64,000 bases of DNA from Roseateles sp. (GTDB lineage Bacteria > Pseudomonadota > Gammaproteobacteria > Burkholderiales > Burkholderiaceae_C). How positions within the stretch are numbered: position 1 is the first letter of the stretch; every line of letters begins with the position of its first letter. Below the pieces are notes generated by a model that searched no databases, was not told the origin of the DNA, and saw only the letters and a list, made by a program, of their open reading frames with translations. The stretch covers positions 1-64,000 of the forward strand of contig NZ_JAFAGT010000060.1 in assembly GCF_019237615.1 (NCBI RefSeq), written 5' to 3'. The translations under genes and the position numbers were made by a program. Shown here piece by piece: positions 844-7,167 of the stretch.

Positions 844-1626
844 ATGAAACTCGCCACCTGGAACGTCAACTCCCTGTCCGTACGCCTGCCGCAGGTGCTC
901 GACTGGCTGGCCGCCCACCCCGTCGACGCGCTGGTGCTGCAGGAGACCAAGCTCACCGACGACAAGTTTCCCACCATGGAGTTCGGCGAGGCCGGCTGGC
1001 AGGTGCAGTGGTTCGGCCAGAAGACCTACAACGGCGTCGCGCTGATCAGCCGTGAGCCGGCGACGGACGTCGTCAAGAACATCACCGGCTTTGCCGACGA
1101 GCAGGCCCGCGTCATCGCCGGCACGGTGGGCGGCGTGCGCGTCATCGGCGGCTACTTCCCCAACGGCCAGGCGCCAGACAGCGAGAAATTCGTCTACAAG
1201 ATGAACTGGCTGAACGGCCTGCGCGGCTGGCTCATCGAGGAGATGAAGCGGTACCCGGAGCTGGTGCTGATGGGTGACTTCAACATCGCCCCGGAGGATC
1301 GCGACGTCTACGACCCTGTCGCCTGGGCCGGCCAGATCCACTGCACGCCCGAGGAGCGCGAGCATTTCCAGAAGCTCATCCAGCTGGGCCTGAGCGATGC
1401 ATTCCGCCTCTTCGACCAGCCGCCCAAGAGCTGGAGCTGGTGGGACTACCGCAACTTGGCCTTCCGCAAGAACCAGGGCCTGCGCATCGACCACATCCTC
1501 GTCAGCGCGGCGCTGAAGAGCCGCGTGACAGCCTGCGAGATCGACAGGCTGCCGCGCAAGAACGAGCGGCCCAGCGACCACGCGCCCGTCATCGTGACGC
1601 TGGACGGTCAGGTGGCGGCGACCTGA
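844..1626 (+). CDS. xthA: Exodeoxyribonuclease III (AP endonuclease)
   Basis: A 260-residue enzyme of the endonuclease/exonuclease/phosphatase fold that cleaves DNA 5' of abasic sites and trims 3' ends during base excision repair. Visible motifs are WNVNSL at the N-terminus, the metal-binding glutamate in LQETKL (about E35), GDFNIAPED (about residue 143) and the catalytic DHAPV pair near the C-terminus (D245, H246). Length matches the family. The ATG follows an AT-rich leader. Its last bases overlap the converging DUF2235 gene by 19 nt. Confidence 0.95.
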   Translation: MKLATWNVNSLSVRLPQVLDWLAAHPVDALVLQETKLTDDKFPTMEFGEAGWQVQWFGQKTYNGVALISREPATDVVKNITGFADEQARVIAGTVGGVRVIGGYFPNGQAPDSEKFVYKMNWLNGLRGWLIEEMKRYPELVLMGDFNIAPEDRDVYDPVAWAGQIHCTPEEREHFQKLIQLGLSDAFRLFDQPPKSWSWWDYRNLAFRKNQGLRIDHILVSAALKSRVTACEIDRLPRKNERPSDHAPVIVTLDGQVAAT

Positions 1627-3311
1627 GGCGCGGGCACCGCCTGGCGGCGCTTGAACGACGTCAGGATCAGCGCCGCGACGCCCAGCAGTCCGACCCATTT
1701 GACGAGGCTGGCGGCGGCCAGCAGCAGCCCCAGCGGTGACGCGATCCAGGAATCGGCACGGACCGCCAGCAGCGCCAGCCAGGACAGCAGGTCCTCCAGC
1801 AGATCCGCACCCACCGCCATGGGCAGCGCCCAGCCGGCGCGGTTCAGCCATGCCGGCGGCCGCTCGCCGACGCGGATCAGGCCAGCATGGCGCGCAAAGG
1901 CCCGGCACACCCAGGGCGCCAGCAGCCATGTGTAGGCGGCGATCAGCATCAGGTCCAGCAGCAGCGCGGTGCCGGGCCGCTCGAAGCCCTTCGCCACAGC
2001 TGACCACTCGGCGAGGGGCAGGCCCAGCTGCCACTGCTGGAAGCGCAGGTTGGCGTCCCACGCGGCGTGCAGCAGCTCCTGTGGCGCGAGCGGGCCTTGC
2101 GGCGGGACGAGGGACCAGCCCATCAGCGCCAGCAGCGGCAGGACCAGCAGCCAGGCCAGCATCGTGACCCAGGACAGCGTGCCCGGTGCGCGCCAGACGG
2201 TGCCCGCCGGGAAGGCTTGCGTCCATTGCGAGACCGAGGGATGGGTGCTCATCTTCACGGGCAGGCTGGCCTGCTCGTCCATCGCCGCACGGGCCGTGTC
2301 GCGCACTTTCAGGCCGGTCAGCGCCCATAGCGGCATGGCGCGGGTCTCGCTGTTGATGCGCGCCGCGTCGCGGGTGGGTGGGACCGGATCGAGCGCGGGC
2401 ATCAGGCGGGTCACGTCCGCTTCGGTCGCGAGCGCTGGATGGCGGGCATTGGCGGGCAGGTTCAGCCCGCAGGCGAGCGCCTCGGCCACCAGCCACGCGA
2501 ACGGCGCCCGCGAGAGCTCGCTGTACCGGTAGGGGTTGCCGCCGCCGACGTCGCAGTGAGAACCACGGAACCAGCATTGCCTGATGTCACCCGGCTGCTG
2601 CCCGACCATGGTGTAGGCGCCGTCGTTCTCCGCATAGGCGCGAGGCAGGAACTGGGCCCGCTGCTCGTCCAGCGCCAGTGCCTGGCGCACATGCCGGAAA
2701 TGCTTGCCGGCCAGGTCGGGCTTGGCGGTGATCTTGAGGCCGAAGGGAGGCAGGCCCACGCTGGCCACGGTGTCCCAGACGCCGACGAAATGGATCTCGG
2801 GCCATTGCGCGGGCGTGCTGCCCTGGCCGAACAGCCGCGCGGCCTGGTCGGCAATGGCCTTGCGCTCCGGCGACTGGCGCGAGAAATAGGTGGCGACCAG
2901 GCTGGAGACCAGCGTGTCCTGGTGGCCGTCGATGATGCCGAAGGCGTTCACGAGCCCAGCGATGGAGCGCGCCGTGAAGGCGCCGCGTGAGAAGCCAAAC
3001 ACGAAGATCTGGTCGCCGGGCCGCCAGTTGGCCATCAGGAAGCGGTAGCCCTCGGCGACGTTGTCGAACAGGCCGCGGCCGAAGGCCAGGCCATCGATGC
3101 GCTCACGAGCGCGGCGGAACTTGTCCGCCACCGTCGTGCCGGGCAACTGGCCGGGGTTGCCGACGCCGGGGTCGCAATAGACCAGCCGGTCGGGGTCCGG
3201 GTAGAGCCCCAGCAGTTCCGCCAGCAGCACCACGTGGGTGTCCGAATGGCGGCCGCTGAGGTTGTTGTTGGTGCCGTCGCACAGCAGCACCAGTTGACGC
3301 GGCGGGTTCAT
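1608..3311 (-). CDS. DUF2235 alpha/beta-hydrolase with C-terminal membrane segments
   Basis: About 567 residues. The N-terminal two-thirds has the DUF2235 hallmarks: LCDGTNNN near the start, and a GFSRGAF nucleophile elbow holding the catalytic serine. This family includes T6SS phospholipase effectors of the Tle1 type and uncharacterised hydrolases. The C-terminal third has three hydrophobic stretches that look like membrane helices, so the protein is probably inner-membrane anchored. No VgrG, PAAR or immunity gene is adjacent, so an effector role is not supported here. I chose the ATG reading MNPPRQLVLL; the frame stays open for 23 more codons upstream without family similarity. Confidence 0.75.
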   Translation of the reverse strand: MNPPRQLVLLCDGTNNNLSGRHSDTHVVLLAELLGLYPDPDRLVYCDPGVGNPGQLPGTTVADKFRRARERIDGLAFGRGLFDNVAEGYRFLMANWRPGDQIFVFGFSRGAFTARSIAGLVNAFGIIDGHQDTLVSSLVATYFSRQSPERKAIADQAARLFGQGSTPAQWPEIHFVGVWDTVASVGLPPFGLKITAKPDLAGKHFRHVRQALALDEQRAQFLPRAYAENDGAYTMVGQQPGDIRQCWFRGSHCDVGGGNPYRYSELSRAPFAWLVAEALACGLNLPANARHPALATEADVTRLMPALDPVPPTRDAARINSETRAMPLWALTGLKVRDTARAAMDEQASLPVKMSTHPSVSQWTQAFPAGTVWRAPGTLSWVTMLAWLLVLPLLALMGWSLVPPQGPLAPQELLHAAWDANLRFQQWQLGLPLAEWSAVAKGFERPGTALLLDLMLIAAYTWLLAPWVCRAFARHAGLIRVGERPPAWLNRAGWALPMAVGADLLEDLLSWLALLAVRADSWIASPLGLLLAAASLVKWVGLLGVAALILTSFKRRQAVPAPQVAAT

Positions 3312-3406
3312 GCGGAGAGCCTCACGAGCGAAGGGGGGGAGGAATGCAGGCAGTTTTGCATCCGCACTCGTCCCCATCATCCCCAGAAGAGCGGAGGCTG
3401 GTGTCC

Positions 3407-4063
3407 CTAGACGGCGTCCAGCCGCGCCTGCAGCCGTTCAAAGAAACGGCCCACATGGATTCCATCGCAGAGTGCATGGTGCACGTCGACGGCCACCGGC
3501 ATCAGCAGCCGGCCCGCCTGCTCTGTGAAGCGGCCGAACGCCACCTTGGGCCGGTCATCGCCCTGGCCGCGGGCATGCGTGAAAGCCGTGAAGGCCAGCC
3601 AGGGCAAGGCTGTCATGTGGACCAGCGTCTCCTCGCGCACGTCGCCGGGCTCGTCGGCCGCGAACAGGTCGCCGCTGGCGCGGCGCACGCGCTCGACCTT
3701 GGGCTTGGCGCACGCCGCGAATGCGGCCAGCGAAGGTTCGCGCGGCAGCGTGACGAAGCCGAAGCTGCCGTCATCGCGCAGTACCGTCGTGCTGGCGTGG
3801 ATGACGGCGAACTCGCGCACGCCGCCGCCATCGGCCGTCAGCGTCTGGTGCATGGCCTCGATGCCGTTTGCCGCCTCCAGCGCTGCATGGTGGTAGGCCA
3901 GCCAGGGCGTCGCTCCATGTCGGGCAGCGCGCTCGCGCAGGCCGGTCACGTCCACCGGGACGGTGACGCTGAAGGCCGGCTGGGCCATGCGGCGGAAGTG
4001 CTCCAGGGCCGCGCGGCGCGGCCAGGCGTCCAGGGGAATGTCGCGATCTTGCATGGGCTGCAT
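3407..4063 (-). CDS. Chloramphenicol acetyltransferase-like O-acetyltransferase (CatA family)
   Basis: A protein of about 218 residues, the usual length for trimeric CAT enzymes that move acetyl from acetyl-CoA to a hydroxyl. The catalytic motif HHALCDG is present (second His about 196, Asp about 200), close to the classical HHAVCDG at 195/199, and the preceding VAVDVHHA strand fits. A chromosomal single copy among housekeeping genes suggests an intrinsic homologue rather than a mobile resistance gene; whether it acetylates chloramphenicol cannot be read from sequence. Start chosen at MQPMQDRD; MQDRD three codons later and a TTG upstream are alternatives. Confidence 0.8.
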   Translation of the reverse strand: MQPMQDRDIPLDAWPRRAALEHFRRMAQPAFSVTVPVDVTGLRERAARHGATPWLAYHHAALEAANGIEAMHQTLTADGGGVREFAVIHASTTVLRDDGSFGFVTLPREPSLAAFAACAKPKVERVRRASGDLFAADEPGDVREETLVHMTALPWLAFTAFTHARGQGDDRPKVAFGRFTEQAGRLLMPVAVDVHHALCDGIHVGRFFERLQARLDAV

Positions 4064-4090
4064 GCTCGCATGCCGGTCGCCCAAACAAGA

Positions 4091-4110
4091 CAGGCCGCTG
4101 GTGCGGCCTG
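4091..4110 (-). terminator. Intrinsic terminator-like hairpin after the alpha-CTD-like gene
   Basis: CAGGCCGC, TGGT loop, GCGGCCTG: an eight-pair perfect stem. Read on the minus strand it is followed by TCTTGTTT. It sits downstream of the stop of the alpha-CTD-like gene and before the acetyltransferase gene, where it would end the micro-ORF/alpha-CTD transcript. Confidence 0.6.
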
Positions 4111-4141
4111 GTCTCTGGAGGTGCGGGATTGGTTCGGGCCG

Positions 4142-4510
4142 TCAGTCGCCGCTGGGCTGGCGCATGCCGAAGTCGTAGAGGGCGCGCTTGAGTTCGTCGG
4201 CGCGCTCTTCGCCCAGATCAGCCAGCAGGCGGTTCGCCGGCGTGCCGCGGATCTGGCCGATCCGGTTGTAGCCCAGTGTCTTGGCGCGCGCCAAGGTACG
4301 GGGCGTCAGCGTCAGGCATTCGAGCGGTGCCTGGTCGGCGAGGCTCAGCAGCCGGGCATAGGTTTCCGAGGAGATGGCCACGATGCTTGCGCTGGCGGGC
4401 AATGCGGTCGGGGTCGAGGCCGGACGCAGGGGCTTTGATGGAAGGTGCGGAGGTGCGGAGCTCGTGGTCTGGAGCTGGTCACCTTCGCAATCCATCATCG
4501 CCGCGTACAT
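4142..4510 (-). CDS. Small protein with a stand-alone RNA polymerase alpha-CTD-like domain
   Basis: A 122-residue protein. Residues 1-60 are low-complexity and Pro/Ser/Thr-rich. Residues about 61-118 line up by eye with the alpha-subunit C-terminal domain: LTLTPR (Arg71 at the place of E. coli alpha R265), K77, IG at 84-85, DLG at 98-100 and ELKRAL. The positions matching alpha K298 and S299 are Glu and Arg, so UP-element binding may differ. LuxR-type activators commonly touch alpha-CTD, and this gene lies downstream of a lux-box-like site, so a decoy or co-regulator role is conceivable; that is inference. It follows the micro-ORF by 26 nt. Confidence 0.6.
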   Translation of the reverse strand: MYAAMMDCEGDQLQTTSSAPPHLPSKPLRPASTPTALPASASIVAISSETYARLLSLADQAPLECLTLTPRTLARAKTLGYNRIGQIRGTPANRLLADLGEERADELKRALYDFGMRQPSGD

Positions 4511-4536
4511 CTCGGTCGAGGCGTCTGCCTTGCTGG

Positions 4537-4593
4537 TCAGCCGCCGAAGCGGGGGACGCCGAGGATTTCGCAGATCAAGTCGATGAGTTGCAT
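4537..4593 (-). CDS. 18-residue micro-ORF with strong ribosome binding site
   Basis: ATG to TGA encodes MQLIDLICEILGVPRFGG. An AGGAG Shine-Dalgarno lies six bases before the ATG, better than that of most genes here. The peptide has a hydrophobic, Ile/Leu-rich first half with one Cys and ends in a Gly-Gly. It is preceded, 68 bases upstream, by a lux-box-like palindrome and followed by the alpha-CTD-like gene, so it may be a leader peptide, a signal peptide precursor or a small regulator. No family is recognised. The case for translation rests on the SD and position only. Confidence 0.45.
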   Translation of the reverse strand: MQLIDLICEILGVPRFGG

Positions 4594-4660
4594 GGGAGGC
4601 TCCTGTGGGATGGGAAAGAAATCGCTGACCCGGACTGTCCCTGTTTTTACCCCCCTAGAA

Positions 4661-4680
4661 ACCTAGCAAGTCTGCCAGCT
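4661..4680 (-). promoter_or_regulatory. lux-box-like operator upstream of the micro-ORF
   Basis: ACCTAGCAAGTCTGCCAGCT matches the layout of LuxR-family boxes (CT-N-rich centre-CAG with dyad symmetry) and differs at only two bases from the copy at the other end of the luxR gene. On the minus strand it is followed by a TAAAAA stretch about 24 bases from its centre, a possible -10, and then by the micro-ORF. Confidence 0.5.
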
Positions 4681-4688
4681 TGCGGTGC

Positions 4689-5417
4689 CTACAGAACGCC
4701 TGCCGCCACGCACTTGAGCACCGCCTGGTGCTTGGAGGTCACCTCCAGCTTGCGCATTGCATTGCCGAGGTGGAAGTTCACGGTCTTCTCGCTCATGCCC
4801 AGGATGACGCTGACCTCCCAGGCCGTCTTGCCCTGGGCCGTCCAGCTCAGCACGTCCAGTTCGCGTCGGGTCAGCTTGGGCAGCTCGCCCTTGTTGAGCT
4901 TGGGGCTCAGCAACCGGTCCGCGGCGGTCAGAGCATGGGCGGCAAGAAGCTGCAGGCCAGCCACCATGTGCATCAGCTGCCCCCCCGCCTTGGGCAGCGA
5001 CTCGTCGCGATCCACGCCAAGCACGAAATGCTTGTCACCCGGCAGATGCAGCTTGACCGCGATGCCGGTCTTGTAGCCGTAGGGGGCCTGCATCTCCCAC
5101 AGCTCACCCACGCCCGCCGAGACATAAGTGGCCTGGTCGTAGACCACGGGTACGGTCTGGGTCATGAGATGACCCACCACTGGATCCCGCAGTGCGTCGC
5201 CCCGATCCCGGGCGGCCTCGAGGTAGCCCACGGGCGTATTGCCATACGTGGTGATCTGCATGCCACTGTCCTGCAGCACTCCGCGCATCAACATGCCCGA
5301 AATGATGGGGAACCCCATGGCATCCGCCGTCGCGACGAGGCGGCGCTCGAAGCTCTCGAAGTCTTCGCTCAGCCCGACATCGATCAGCTGCTGGTAGTTC
5401 ATTTCGGGCTTGGCCAT
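4689..5417 (-). CDS. LuxR-type regulator with autoinducer-binding domain (orphan/solo)
   Basis: About 242 residues: an N-terminal autoinducer-binding domain and a C-terminal LuxR helix-turn-helix (LTRRELDVLSWTAQGKTAWE to MSEKTVNFHLGNAMRKL). In the ligand pocket the DPVV aspartate-proline pair is kept, but by eye the positions of TraR W57 and Y61 read Tyr and Ala, so the ligand may not be a standard acyl-homoserine lactone. No luxI is nearby. I chose the ATG of MAKPEMNYQQ; a TTG three codons earlier lies inside the operator, and MNYQQL is a later alternative. The operator abuts this ATG, which suggests autoregulation. Confidence 0.85.
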   Translation of the reverse strand: MAKPEMNYQQLIDVGLSEDFESFERRLVATADAMGFPIISGMLMRGVLQDSGMQITTYGNTPVGYLEAARDRGDALRDPVVGHLMTQTVPVVYDQATYVSAGVGELWEMQAPYGYKTGIAVKLHLPGDKHFVLGVDRDESLPKAGGQLMHMVAGLQLLAAHALTAADRLLSPKLNKGELPKLTRRELDVLSWTAQGKTAWEVSVILGMSEKTVNFHLGNAMRKLEVTSKHQAVLKCVAAGVL

Positions 5418-5437
5418 ACCTGCCAAGTCTGCCAGCT
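5418..5437 (+). promoter_or_regulatory. lux-box-like operator between luxR and the divergent orphan gene
   Basis: ACCTGCCAAGTCTGCCAGCT has the CTG-N10-CAG arrangement and inner CA-N4-TG dyad of Las/Rhl-type boxes; from memory it resembles the P. aeruginosa lasB box at most positions. It ends one base before the luxR ATG and lies 69 bases from the divergent gene's ATG, almost the same distance as the second copy to the micro-ORF (68). A TACTAA at 5476-5481 is a candidate -10 for the divergent gene. Confidence 0.6.
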
Positions 5438-5505
5438 TGTTCGCCCCCCCGAGCCGACCAGAGACTGCGCTCCCGTACTAAACACACGCCAGAGAGGAGG
5501 CGTCC

Positions 5506-5922
5506 ATGTCAGCCCTGATCCAGTTGCCCGAAGGCAGCGTCTGCTGGCCCGCGGCCGCCCTGCCCGGCGCCGCCCGCGACGCGAGGCATGCCCGGACCCA
5601 AATGCATTGCTCGCGCGGCGACGAGCGCCGGGCGAGCGGCTCCACGCGCTGGGACCGTTGCTATGCCGATGCCTGCGCCTGGGTGGAGTGGGACTGGGTC
5701 GAGATGATCGAAGGCACCATCGTGCAGGCCGATCCCCTCAATGTGCGCTCCAACGTGCTGCTGCTGGACGAGCGTGGCCGGCCGCTGCTGTCGTCGCGGC
5801 GGCGCGCGATGCTGGCGACGCTGGTGTACCTGCTGCCCTGGCAGGGACCGGTGCTGGATGCGCTCAGGAACACCTTGCACGGCCGCCGCGCCGGCTCCGT
5901 GGAGCAGCGCTTGGCCGCCTGA
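5506..5922 (+). CDS. Hypothetical protein divergent from luxR, behind a lux-box-like site
   Basis: A 138-residue protein I do not recognise. The ATG has an excellent GAGAGGAGG ribosome binding site. The first 45 residues are Ala/Arg-rich; the middle holds a Trp/acidic stretch (CAWVEWDWVEMIEG) followed by a beta-rich segment (NVLLLDERGRPLLSS) and a hydrophobic helix (MLATLVYLLPW). There is no signal peptide. Its promoter region carries the lux-box-like operator, so it is a likely target of the neighbouring regulator. Confidence 0.6.
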   Translation: MSALIQLPEGSVCWPAAALPGAARDARHARTQMHCSRGDERRASGSTRWDRCYADACAWVEWDWVEMIEGTIVQADPLNVRSNVLLLDERGRPLLSSRRRAMLATLVYLLPWQGPVLDALRNTLHGRRAGSVEQRLAA

Positions 5923-5989
5923 ACATGGGCGACAGCGCGGGGCGCCGGCTTTGCGCAGAATCGGTGGCTTCCCCGCTTGAAGCCGCACC

Positions 5990-6535
5990 ATGAGTTCATC
6001 TTCTCCCGACGACATCCTTGCGCAATGGCAGGCCGAGGAGGCCGCAGTTCGCGCGCGCCAGCAGCGCGACACCGGGCTGGCTTCGCGAGCGATGCTGGCC
6101 GGCAAGACCGGCCTGCAGCAGATGCAGGCCATGCTGGACGGCCTCGCGCCGCCGCCGCCGATCAGCCAGACGCTGGACTTCGCATTGATCTCGGTCGAGG
6201 ACGGCCAGGCCACCTTCCAGGGCCGGCCGCTGTTCAAGCACTACAACCCGCTGGGCAGCGTGCATGGCGGCTGGTTCGCGACGCTGCTGGACTCCGCCCT
6301 GGGCTGTTCTGTGCACACGACGCTGCCCGTGGGCCGCGGCTACACGACGCTGGAGTTCAAGGTCAACCTGGTGCGCAGCCTGAACGACAAGGTGCCGCTG
6401 GTGCGTGCGATCGGCCGCGTGGTGCATCGTGGCAGGCAGGTGACGACATCGGAAGCCACCCTCGTCGGCCACGACGGCAAGCTCTATGCCCACGCGTCGA
6501 CGACCTGCCTGCTGTTCGACCTGCCGCCGGCCTAG
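5990..6535 (+). CDS. PaaI-family hotdog-fold thioesterase
   Basis: A 181-residue protein with the PaaI/YdiI-type hotdog signature NPLGSVHGGWFATLLDSALG (about residues 84-103), including the HGG turn and the acidic residue on the central helix. The family hydrolyses aryl- or acyl-CoA thioesters in the cytoplasm. The N-terminal 50 residues are a charged helical extension. Substrate cannot be assigned: no phenylacetate genes are adjacent. It converges on eda, with two bases between the stops. Confidence 0.8.
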   Translation: MSSSSPDDILAQWQAEEAAVRARQQRDTGLASRAMLAGKTGLQQMQAMLDGLAPPPPISQTLDFALISVEDGQATFQGRPLFKHYNPLGSVHGGWFATLLDSALGCSVHTTLPVGRGYTTLEFKVNLVRSLNDKVPLVRAIGRVVHRGRQVTTSEATLVGHDGKLYAHASTTCLLFDLPPA

Positions 6536-6537
6536 CG

Positions 6538-7167
6538 TCAGGCGCGCAGCGCCGCGGCCTCGGCGGCCAGCTTGGTGATGCGCGTCCAGTCCTTGGCGTC
6601 GATGGCGTCCTGCGGCGTCAGCCAGGAGCCGCCGCAGACCTTGACGTTTGGCAGCTTCAGGAACTGCGGCGCGGTCTCCAGCGAGATGCCGCCGGTCGGG
6701 CAGAAGGCCACATCCGGGAACGGGCCGGCCAGCGACTTCAGCAGGTTCACGCCACCCACGGCGACGGCCGGGAACAGCTTCAGGAAGCCGAAGCCCGCCG
6801 CGTTGGCCTGCATGACTTCGGAGGCCGTCGACACGCCGGGCAGCAGCGGCAGGCCTTCGGCCTTGCAGGCCGCGGCCAGCGCGTCGGTGTAGCCGGGGCT
6901 CACGCCGAACTGGCAGCCGGCGTTCTTGGCGTGGGTGACGTCCTGCGGACTGCGCAGCGTGCCGGCGCCGACGATGGCGCCCGGCACCTTGGCCATGGCT
7001 TCCATGGCCTGCAGCGCGACGGGGGTGCGCAGCGTCACCTCAAGCACCTTGACGCCACCGGCGACCAGCGCTTCGGCCAGCGGCACGGCGTCTTCCAGGC
7101 GCTGGATGACGATGACGGGAATGACGGGGCCGTGGCTGGCCAGGCTGAGGGTATCGATCATCTTCAT
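6538..7167 (-). CDS. eda: KDPG/KHG aldolase (Entner-Doudoroff)
   Basis: About 209 residues (E. coli Eda has 213). It splits 2-keto-3-deoxy-6-phosphogluconate into pyruvate and glyceraldehyde-3-phosphate. Motifs: EVTLRTP with the catalytic Glu, [16 protein letters not shown], and LKLFPA with the Schiff-base lysine, then PTGGIS. I took the ATG of MKMIDTL, preceded by AAGGA; the longer frame to 7230 begins immediately next to the edd stop and its extra 21 residues are not family-like. It lies 62 bases after edd on the same strand and is surely co-transcribed. Confidence 0.93.

Follow-up and report, generated by a model that had tools for sequence, protein, structure and literature searches.

The locus

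In a Roseateles species (RefSeq assembly GCF_019237615.1, a 4.8-Mb draft of 108 contigs, 99% complete), the first 64,000 nucleotides of contig NZ_JAFAGT010000060.1, here called the window, contain a compact regulatory locus in which a LuxR-type regulator is followed by a very short open reading frame (ORF) that may encode its signal. The luxR gene occupies positions 4689-5402 of the minus strand, and its product carries the Autoind_bind (PF03472, 42.4 bits) and GerE (PF00196, 72 bits) domains. The frame is open to a TTG at 5426; alignment of the family points to the ATG at 5402 as the probable conserved start, so that 17 bases would separate the start of luxR from the first of its two operators. 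An earlier note on this DNA had described the regulator as lacking a luxI, and indeed no partner was found beside luxR or in the 108-contig genome. The sole Autoind_synth match of the genome, on another contig, was rejected as a luxI, being a PEP-CTERM/exosortase acyltransferase (exosort_acyl, TIGR03694). Among 20 same-genus genomes (of 60 searched), no Autoind_synth match exceeded 34.5 bits, and the one at that score was partial.

Two lux boxes flank luxR. Operator 1 (CTGCCAAGTCTGCCAGCTTG, 5420-5439; 18-mer form CTGGCAGACTTGGCAGGT at 5418-5435, minus strand) lies between luxR and a divergent gene, and operator 2 (CTAGCAAGTCTGCCAGCTTG, 4663-4682; 18-mer form CTGGCAGACTTGCTAGGT at 4661-4678, minus strand) lies 3' of luxR and 5' of the short ORF. 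The operators agree at 18 of 20 bases, as the earlier note had claimed, a match absent from 100 shuffled versions of the window, and with up to one mismatch the 18-base lux-box form occurs at exactly two sites in the whole genome, both at this locus. The equal spacing of 68-69 bases to the outer start codons proved approximate, the measured distances being 69 bases to the start of the short ORF (4593) and 66 to that of the divergent gene (5506).

The short ORF, or micro-ORF (4537-4593, minus strand), encodes the leaderless peptide MQLIDLICEILGVPRFGG with the core VPRFGG and is preceded by a Shine-Dalgarno sequence, AGGAG, at 4600-4604. Next on the same strand is a small gene (4142-4510) of uncertain true start, whose C-terminal half weakly resembles the C-terminal domain of the RNA polymerase α subunit (αCTD); 26 bases separate the end of the micro-ORF from its first ATG. 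On the other side of luxR, the 138-residue product of the divergent gene (5506-5922, plus strand) passes the DUF4902 (PF16245) cut-off narrowly, at 26.2 against 25 bits, and A3, a profile of its RsaM-like family built from 36 relatives, matches the solved Burkholderia RsaM (BcRsaM, 4o2h) with an E-value of 8.4e-6. By these profile matches the predicted protein belongs to the RsaM/DUF4902 family and is not the orphan it had been taken for. PF16245 was matched at E 0.01 by 26 of the 36 A3 members, the member from locus L104 being one without a match. RsaM is a known modulator of quorum sensing and acts negatively in several systems based on N-acyl-homoserine lactones (AHLs).

A conserved unit of rsaM, luxR and a peptide gene

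An alignment of eleven LuxR proteins (A1, one of them from L034) was used to scan named genomes. The family counts below refer to the best 80 of 206 confirmed stretches (confirmation query L047), a set that partly overlaps loci from other genome searches of this analysis. By title, these loci are mostly from Burkholderiales, with some unclassified bins and bins labelled Vitreoscilla (L059) and Methylotenera (L087). The rsaM gene lies 5' of luxR and divergent from it at 78 of the 80 loci and was not found in L055 or L071. Twin lux boxes are a trait of this LuxR family: the family pattern CT[AG]..AG..[CT]T..[CT]AG was found 3' of luxR exactly at 69 loci and with up to one mismatch at 74, against 0 and 72 of 3,855 background segments of 140 bases, and 5' of luxR at 56 and 74 loci, against 0 and 192 of 3,855 background segments of 350 bases.

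A small ORF encoding the core xP(R/K/Y)xG(W/G/F), or a near variant, was found 3' of luxR at 78 of the 80 loci; one of the other two, L117, lies on a contig that stops 37 bases past the luxR match. Among 80 target zones, a strict regular expression for the core matched 54 and a loose pattern 69; among 3,797 background zones the counts were 12 and 161, respectively. The core forms the exact C-terminal end of 64 of the 78 peptides and is duplicated in 11, and at L058 it stops ten residues short of the peptide end. Six peptides (L065, L070, L072, L077, L080 and L089) were recovered with a relaxed Shine-Dalgarno requirement, and the ORF of L130 uses a GTG start. The predicted peptide stands where luxI would be expected, behind a lux box. 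Pfam and NCBIfam gave no family above cut-off for the ten leadered peptides tried, micro-ORFs of fewer than 20 residues not being scanned. At L066, two small ORFs with the same core lie in tandem 3' of luxR and encode MQHPTNQAPGFPRVGF and the 9-residue MTSFPRVGF.

As a control, 30 loci of other LuxRs from related genomes were also read. The 15 with an A1 score of at least 284, several of which are also counted among other sets, had a box at 13 loci, a peptide ORF at 12 and at least one of the two at all 15. All 15 loci below 284 lacked the box and gave a single chance ORF match, and for non-family LuxRs (A1 score below 120) the figures were 0 of 14 for the box and 1 of 14, a chance match, for the peptide ORF. 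A first reading of LuxR-RsaM pairs, covering 12 LuxR genes, found a peptide beside six and none for L021, L024, L026, L028 or either LuxR of L034. In a sample of 399 genomes from the order, with up to seven candidates scored in each, at least 3 genomes reached E ≤ 1e-60; one is the genome of the window, and of the two others, L234 has a peptide and L235 lacks one. Plasmid records gave seven distant LuxR matches (28-37% identity).

Within the genus, the claim of an 18-codon micro-ORF held up well. It is exactly 18 codons long and free of gaps at all 18 same-genus loci that have the αCTD-like gene, with a GGAG- or AGGA-type site 5' of it at each, and its nucleotide identity across these loci is 73% with no gaps, whereas the 90 columns that follow have 46% identity and 16% gaps. 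Recurrence at other loci, beyond any codon signal, is the main evidence that the predicted micro-ORF is real. The idea that it is a frameshifted N-terminus of the αCTD-like gene was rejected, as a stop stands at codon 19 in 18 of 18 loci. The earlier note had suggested asking whether the parts stay together in relatives: the αCTD-like gene is present in 18 of 20 same-genus genomes, and all 18 loci keep luxR and the micro-ORF (at L009 the contig end cuts luxR, and operator 1 and rsaM would lie beyond the contig). The note's refuting condition, that most relatives lack both operators and neighbours, was thus not borne out. Across the family, it is close to certain, as a fact of genome sequence, that rsaM, box, luxR, box and peptide gene form a conserved unit.

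Promoter geometry agrees with activation from the downstream box. In the window, a -10-like hexamer, GACAGT, starts at base 32 from the centre of operator 2. Across 74 loci, the hexamer at this offset from the centre of the downstream box matches TATAAT at a mean of 3.58 positions, and at four or more positions in 59% of loci (mean over all offsets 1.30, standard deviation 0.45). A -10-like element at base 32 would place the box near -42.5, and LuxR-type activators act from about -42.5. On the rsaM side nearly the same offset is favoured, weakly (2.16 at base 33). The box type of the window had 22 matches across 21 genomes, of which 20 sit at the luxR locus; the exceptions, G006:C21 and G090:C6, have one mismatch each and lie away from it.

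Precursor form and exporter genes

In other genera the peptide occurs either as a short form or as a double-glycine (GG) precursor. At 34 of the 80 loci, genes for HlyD and for a C39-peptidase ABC transporter (C39-ABC) were detected 3' of the peptide ORF by tblastn, and the domains were confirmed at L104 and L122. All 34 peptides with an adjacent exporter have a GG-type leader (GA in L112); a regular expression flagged 33 of them, and L094, with VTGG, was classed by eye. At loci without the exporter, 42 of 44 peptides are leaderless, and L077 and L084 show a leader-like GG or GS. The predicted precursor form and the exporter genes thus go together.

The window's own peptide, at 18 residues, has neither a GG leader nor an adjacent C39-ABC gene, and the host genome gave no C39 peptidase match, so that the host peptide may act intracellularly; it is possible that it stays within the cell or is otherwise exported. 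C39 peptidases are present in some same-genus genomes. In a LuxR tree made by a quick method (support for the main split 85 and 88), the loci that lack both leader and exporter fall into one large group and a small clade nested within the exporter group (L096, L119, L126 and L128); the αCTD-like gene is characteristic of a single clade.

A candidate peptide-LuxR circuit and its alternatives

The reading that we favour, and consider fairly probable, is a closed circuit of autoinduction: a short ribosomal peptide would pair with LuxR and replace the LuxI-made AHL signal. The peptide, or its C-terminal core, would bind the ligand domain of LuxR; the complex would activate the peptide gene through operator 2, giving positive feedback, and would also activate rsaM, less strongly, through operator 1. 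Because RsaM is a negative modulator in several AHL systems, this second arm would act as a brake. At loci with a GG leader, the adjacent C39-ABC/HlyD exporter would cleave and export the peptide, which would then act as a pheromone. A plausible output in the window's genus is the αCTD-like gene, next 3' on the same strand. As the genome has no further copy of the operators with up to one mismatch, the output, barring weaker sites, would depend on the peptide itself, on RsaM or on the αCTD-like protein.

Two features of the LuxR proteins bear on the ligand. Of the LasR residues Y56, W60 and D73, which contact the AHL head group, the equivalents of Y56 and W60 are present in 0 and 1 of 78 LuxRs, respectively. 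In addition, similarity among peptide cores follows similarity among LuxR ligand domains (partial Mantel r 0.35 with the DNA-binding domain controlled for, 0 of 2,000 permutations being as high; 0.25 within exporter loci, 4 of 2,000; 0.45 in the remaining loci, 0 of 2,000) and not similarity among DNA-binding domains given the ligand domain (r -0.07), in permutations that leave some shared ancestry and with 15 of the 78 cores set by hand.

Besides these limits on the correlation, several observations weigh against a peptide ligand. The equivalent of the AHL-contact Asp, D73, is kept in 78 of 78 LuxRs, and Trp at the W88 position is kept in 34 of 34 exporter loci (6 of 44 others), so that another small ligand is possible. 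A peptide is truly absent from L071, is lacking at L034, where two LuxRs (one of them a row of A1) stand by a DUF4902 gene, and is lacking beside the LuxRs scoring 207-211, namely L186 (one of the L034 pair) and L235. Selection on the codons of the micro-ORF appears weak (pN/pS, the ratio of nonsynonymous to synonymous polymorphism, 0.70, matched by 31 of 200 column shuffles), and at 15 αCTD loci the -10 score at offset 23 is 3.07, against 3.0 at 32. With no C39 match in the host genome, a secreted role of the leaderless peptide there would have no known route. Finally, the core and box counts come from patterns composed after inspection of this family's loci, and some of the 80 loci share one genome.

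Much of the same evidence can be read in another way for the window's genus, where the peptide could act inside the cell as a microprotein that modulates LuxR, either as cofactor or as antagonist, in a cell-autonomous switch. To this we give a little under even odds; it overlaps the peptide-signal circuit, and the odds of the two do not sum to one. It would fit the leaderless state of 42 of 44 peptides at exporter-less loci, the lack of a C39 peptidase match in the host genome and the confinement of the operators to this locus. Yet a GG-type leader with an adjacent exporter at 34 loci, the domains being checked at two, suggests a family built overall for export, the same kind of core occurs in leadered and leaderless forms, and some same-genus genomes do have C39 peptidases.

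GG leaders and C39-ABC exporters serve bacteriocins too, and one peptide's leader weakly resembles RaxX (E 0.011), so the peptides could instead be small bacteriocins or RiPP (ribosomally synthesized and post-translationally modified peptide) effectors under an AHL- or metabolite-sensing LuxR that does not bind them. This is unlikely, given the correlation of the core with the LuxR ligand domain and the existence of leaderless 9-residue forms such as MTSFPRVGF; moreover, HlyD and C39-ABC are the evident genes past the peptide at the two loci read, no systematic search for immunity or modification genes having been made. It is very unlikely that the regulator is an ordinary AHL-eavesdropping LuxR solo paired with RsaM, beside which the small ORFs are incidental. 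LuxR solos next to RsaM have indeed been described (PMC10710839), the Asp at D73 is kept throughout, and the relatives L034, L071 and L235 lack the peptide; however, a peptide ORF at 78 of 80 loci, preceded by a lux box at 69 (74 with one mismatch), the lack of box and peptide in 14 non-family LuxRs, bar one chance ORF, and the loss of the Tyr56 and Trp60 equivalents argue otherwise. That the micro-ORF is a translational leader of the αCTD-like gene, acting by attenuation or coupling, would suit its position 5' of that frame on the same strand, 26 bases from the first ATG, but is scarcely tenable, as tblastn did not detect the αCTD-like gene at 63 of 78 peptide loci and the amino-acid core is conserved, beyond mere position.

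The αCTD-like gene and the surroundings of the circuit

While found in 18 of 20 same-genus genomes, the αCTD-like gene was found in 0 of 129 other genomes; judged by this distribution, it is a genus-specific addition and not the heart of the system. The likeness itself is only suggestive. PF03118 was matched weakly by 6 of 16 members (best E 0.035), the window's own row giving no match, and a profile of the family aligned with αCTD over 51 collinear columns at P 0.006 (control pair 0.62). The earlier note's self-contained regulon survives in its outward-facing twin boxes and its cohesion in relatives, with the αCTD-like gene moved to the periphery and the micro-ORF recognised as the local form of a wider peptide family.

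Two further minus-strand genes adjoin the circuit, with no evident link to it: a gene with the chloramphenicol-acetyltransferase fold at 3407-4084 (PF00302, 72 bits; short of the CatA cut-offs of NCBIfam) and, at 1608-3380, a gene with a Tle1-like phospholipase domain.

The host genome carries a second LuxR-RsaM pair, with the peptide MWTLIAELLGLPYGGGN. The lux box of this second Roseateles system is of a separate type, with 18 matches in 21 genomes, every one of them flanking a luxR. In this second circuit, the peptide ORF is followed on its 3' side by an RNA about 100 bases long that is strongly conserved and includes hairpins with C-rich loops as well as a terminator; it was seen at L050 (in the window's own genome, G000:C20, about 31.1-32.2 kb), L063, L065, L069, L070, L072, L074, L076, L078, L080, L083, L085 and L089. 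Of 14 aligned loci, all but L060 have a recognisable hairpin CGTTCGG-CGCCCC-CCGAACG, and 10 have the exact loop of the first hairpin, CACCTCCA. Rfam gave no family at this position in the five second-circuit loci searched. The RNA could be an anti-Shine-Dalgarno small RNA and the output of the second circuit. At L050, L069, L072, L083 and L089, repeated tRNA arrays lie about 1 to 2.4 kb 5' of luxR, and an opposite-strand tRNA stands between the array and rsaM.

Two contigs from a viral collection, L190 (IMGVR_UViG_2738541337_000001, 3947-6886) and L191 (IMGVR_UViG_3300049190_000028, 3989-6609), carry a LuxR of the family with a small peptide ORF encoding MSFFELIAELLGLPYVGGN or MHSFFDAFLELLGIPYGGG. 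Both also encode a Cro/CI-type repressor and, in convergent orientation, a second LuxR-type protein; the layout recalls arbitrium. Phage records gave no match for the L190 LuxR, and two further viral scans gave no contigs beyond these two.

Relation to known systems

Arbitrium (AimR-AimP) of Bacillus phages uses AimR, a tetratricopeptide repeat (TPR) protein, as receptor. Like it, the two viral-collection contigs combine a receptor gene with a small ORF for a peptide, close to a repressor of phage type; unlike it, their candidate receptor is LuxR-type. Short ribosomal peptides beside their regulator are also found in the streptococcal SHP/Rgg systems. In the Rgg-regulated rtg locus, GG peptides are exported by a peptidase-containing ABC transporter (PMC7018657), as in some loci of the present family. 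In SHP/Rgg and rtg the receptor is of the RRNPP (TPR) class and the hosts are Gram-positive, whereas here the candidate receptor is a LuxR-type protein, not a TPR receptor, and the hosts are Burkholderiales.

Among LuxR systems, lux boxes and autoinduction are features of the LuxI/LuxR/RsaM AHL circuits, as here. These circuits, known from Burkholderia, Acinetobacter and P. fuscovaginae, share with the present family a LuxR-type regulator, an adjoining signal gene and an RsaM modulator (PMC10710839); here, however, a small peptide ORF lies at the place of luxI, and the LasR Y56 and W60 residues are lost. Divergent pairs of rsaM and a LuxR solo with no adjacent luxI have already been described in Pelomonas, Kinneretia, Albitalea and others as type 6 of Venturi et al. 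2023 (PMC10710839); the available part of that paper does not mention a peptide ORF, a second lux box or an exporter, all of which are present in this family (the exporter in some). The LuxR solo PipR responds to peptide-like inducers of outside origin (PMC4981722, PMC10134790). In the available parts of these papers, PipR/OryR resemble the present regulators in their reported response to peptide-like compounds, but the inducer is exogenous or plant-derived, and later listed as an ethanolamine derivative, the neighbours are pip and peptidase genes, and no encoded peptide is mentioned. LuxR goes unmentioned in the available text of a study of density signalling in Azoarcus (PMC3262810). In full-text searches of the open-licence literature (subscription papers and preprints being outside this scope), no title or opening of an abstract paired a LuxR-type regulator with an encoded peptide.

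The logic and parts of the circuit are already known, and the signal class alone would differ. LuxR-type receptors are commonly held to sense small diffusible metabolites, mainly AHLs, and peptide pheromones are assigned to Gram-positives. We put at about even the chance that these loci represent a Gram-negative quorum-sensing class with encoded peptide pheromones as activators of LuxR-type receptors. The peptides, with a core like xP(R/K/Y)xG(W/G), would be exported by a dedicated C39-ABC transporter in some lineages and reduced to leaderless forms in Roseateles and its relatives, and at least two phage-like contigs would carry the system beside repressor genes. Proof of peptide binding would make this a new quorum-sensing class. 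It would account for a set of LuxR solos without a known ligand and would give RsaM an AHL-free setting. Were the peptide the ligand, both the LuxR receptor and its signal could be read straight from the genome, so that the specificity, cross-talk and evolution of the pair would be directly testable through synthesis of the six-residue core.

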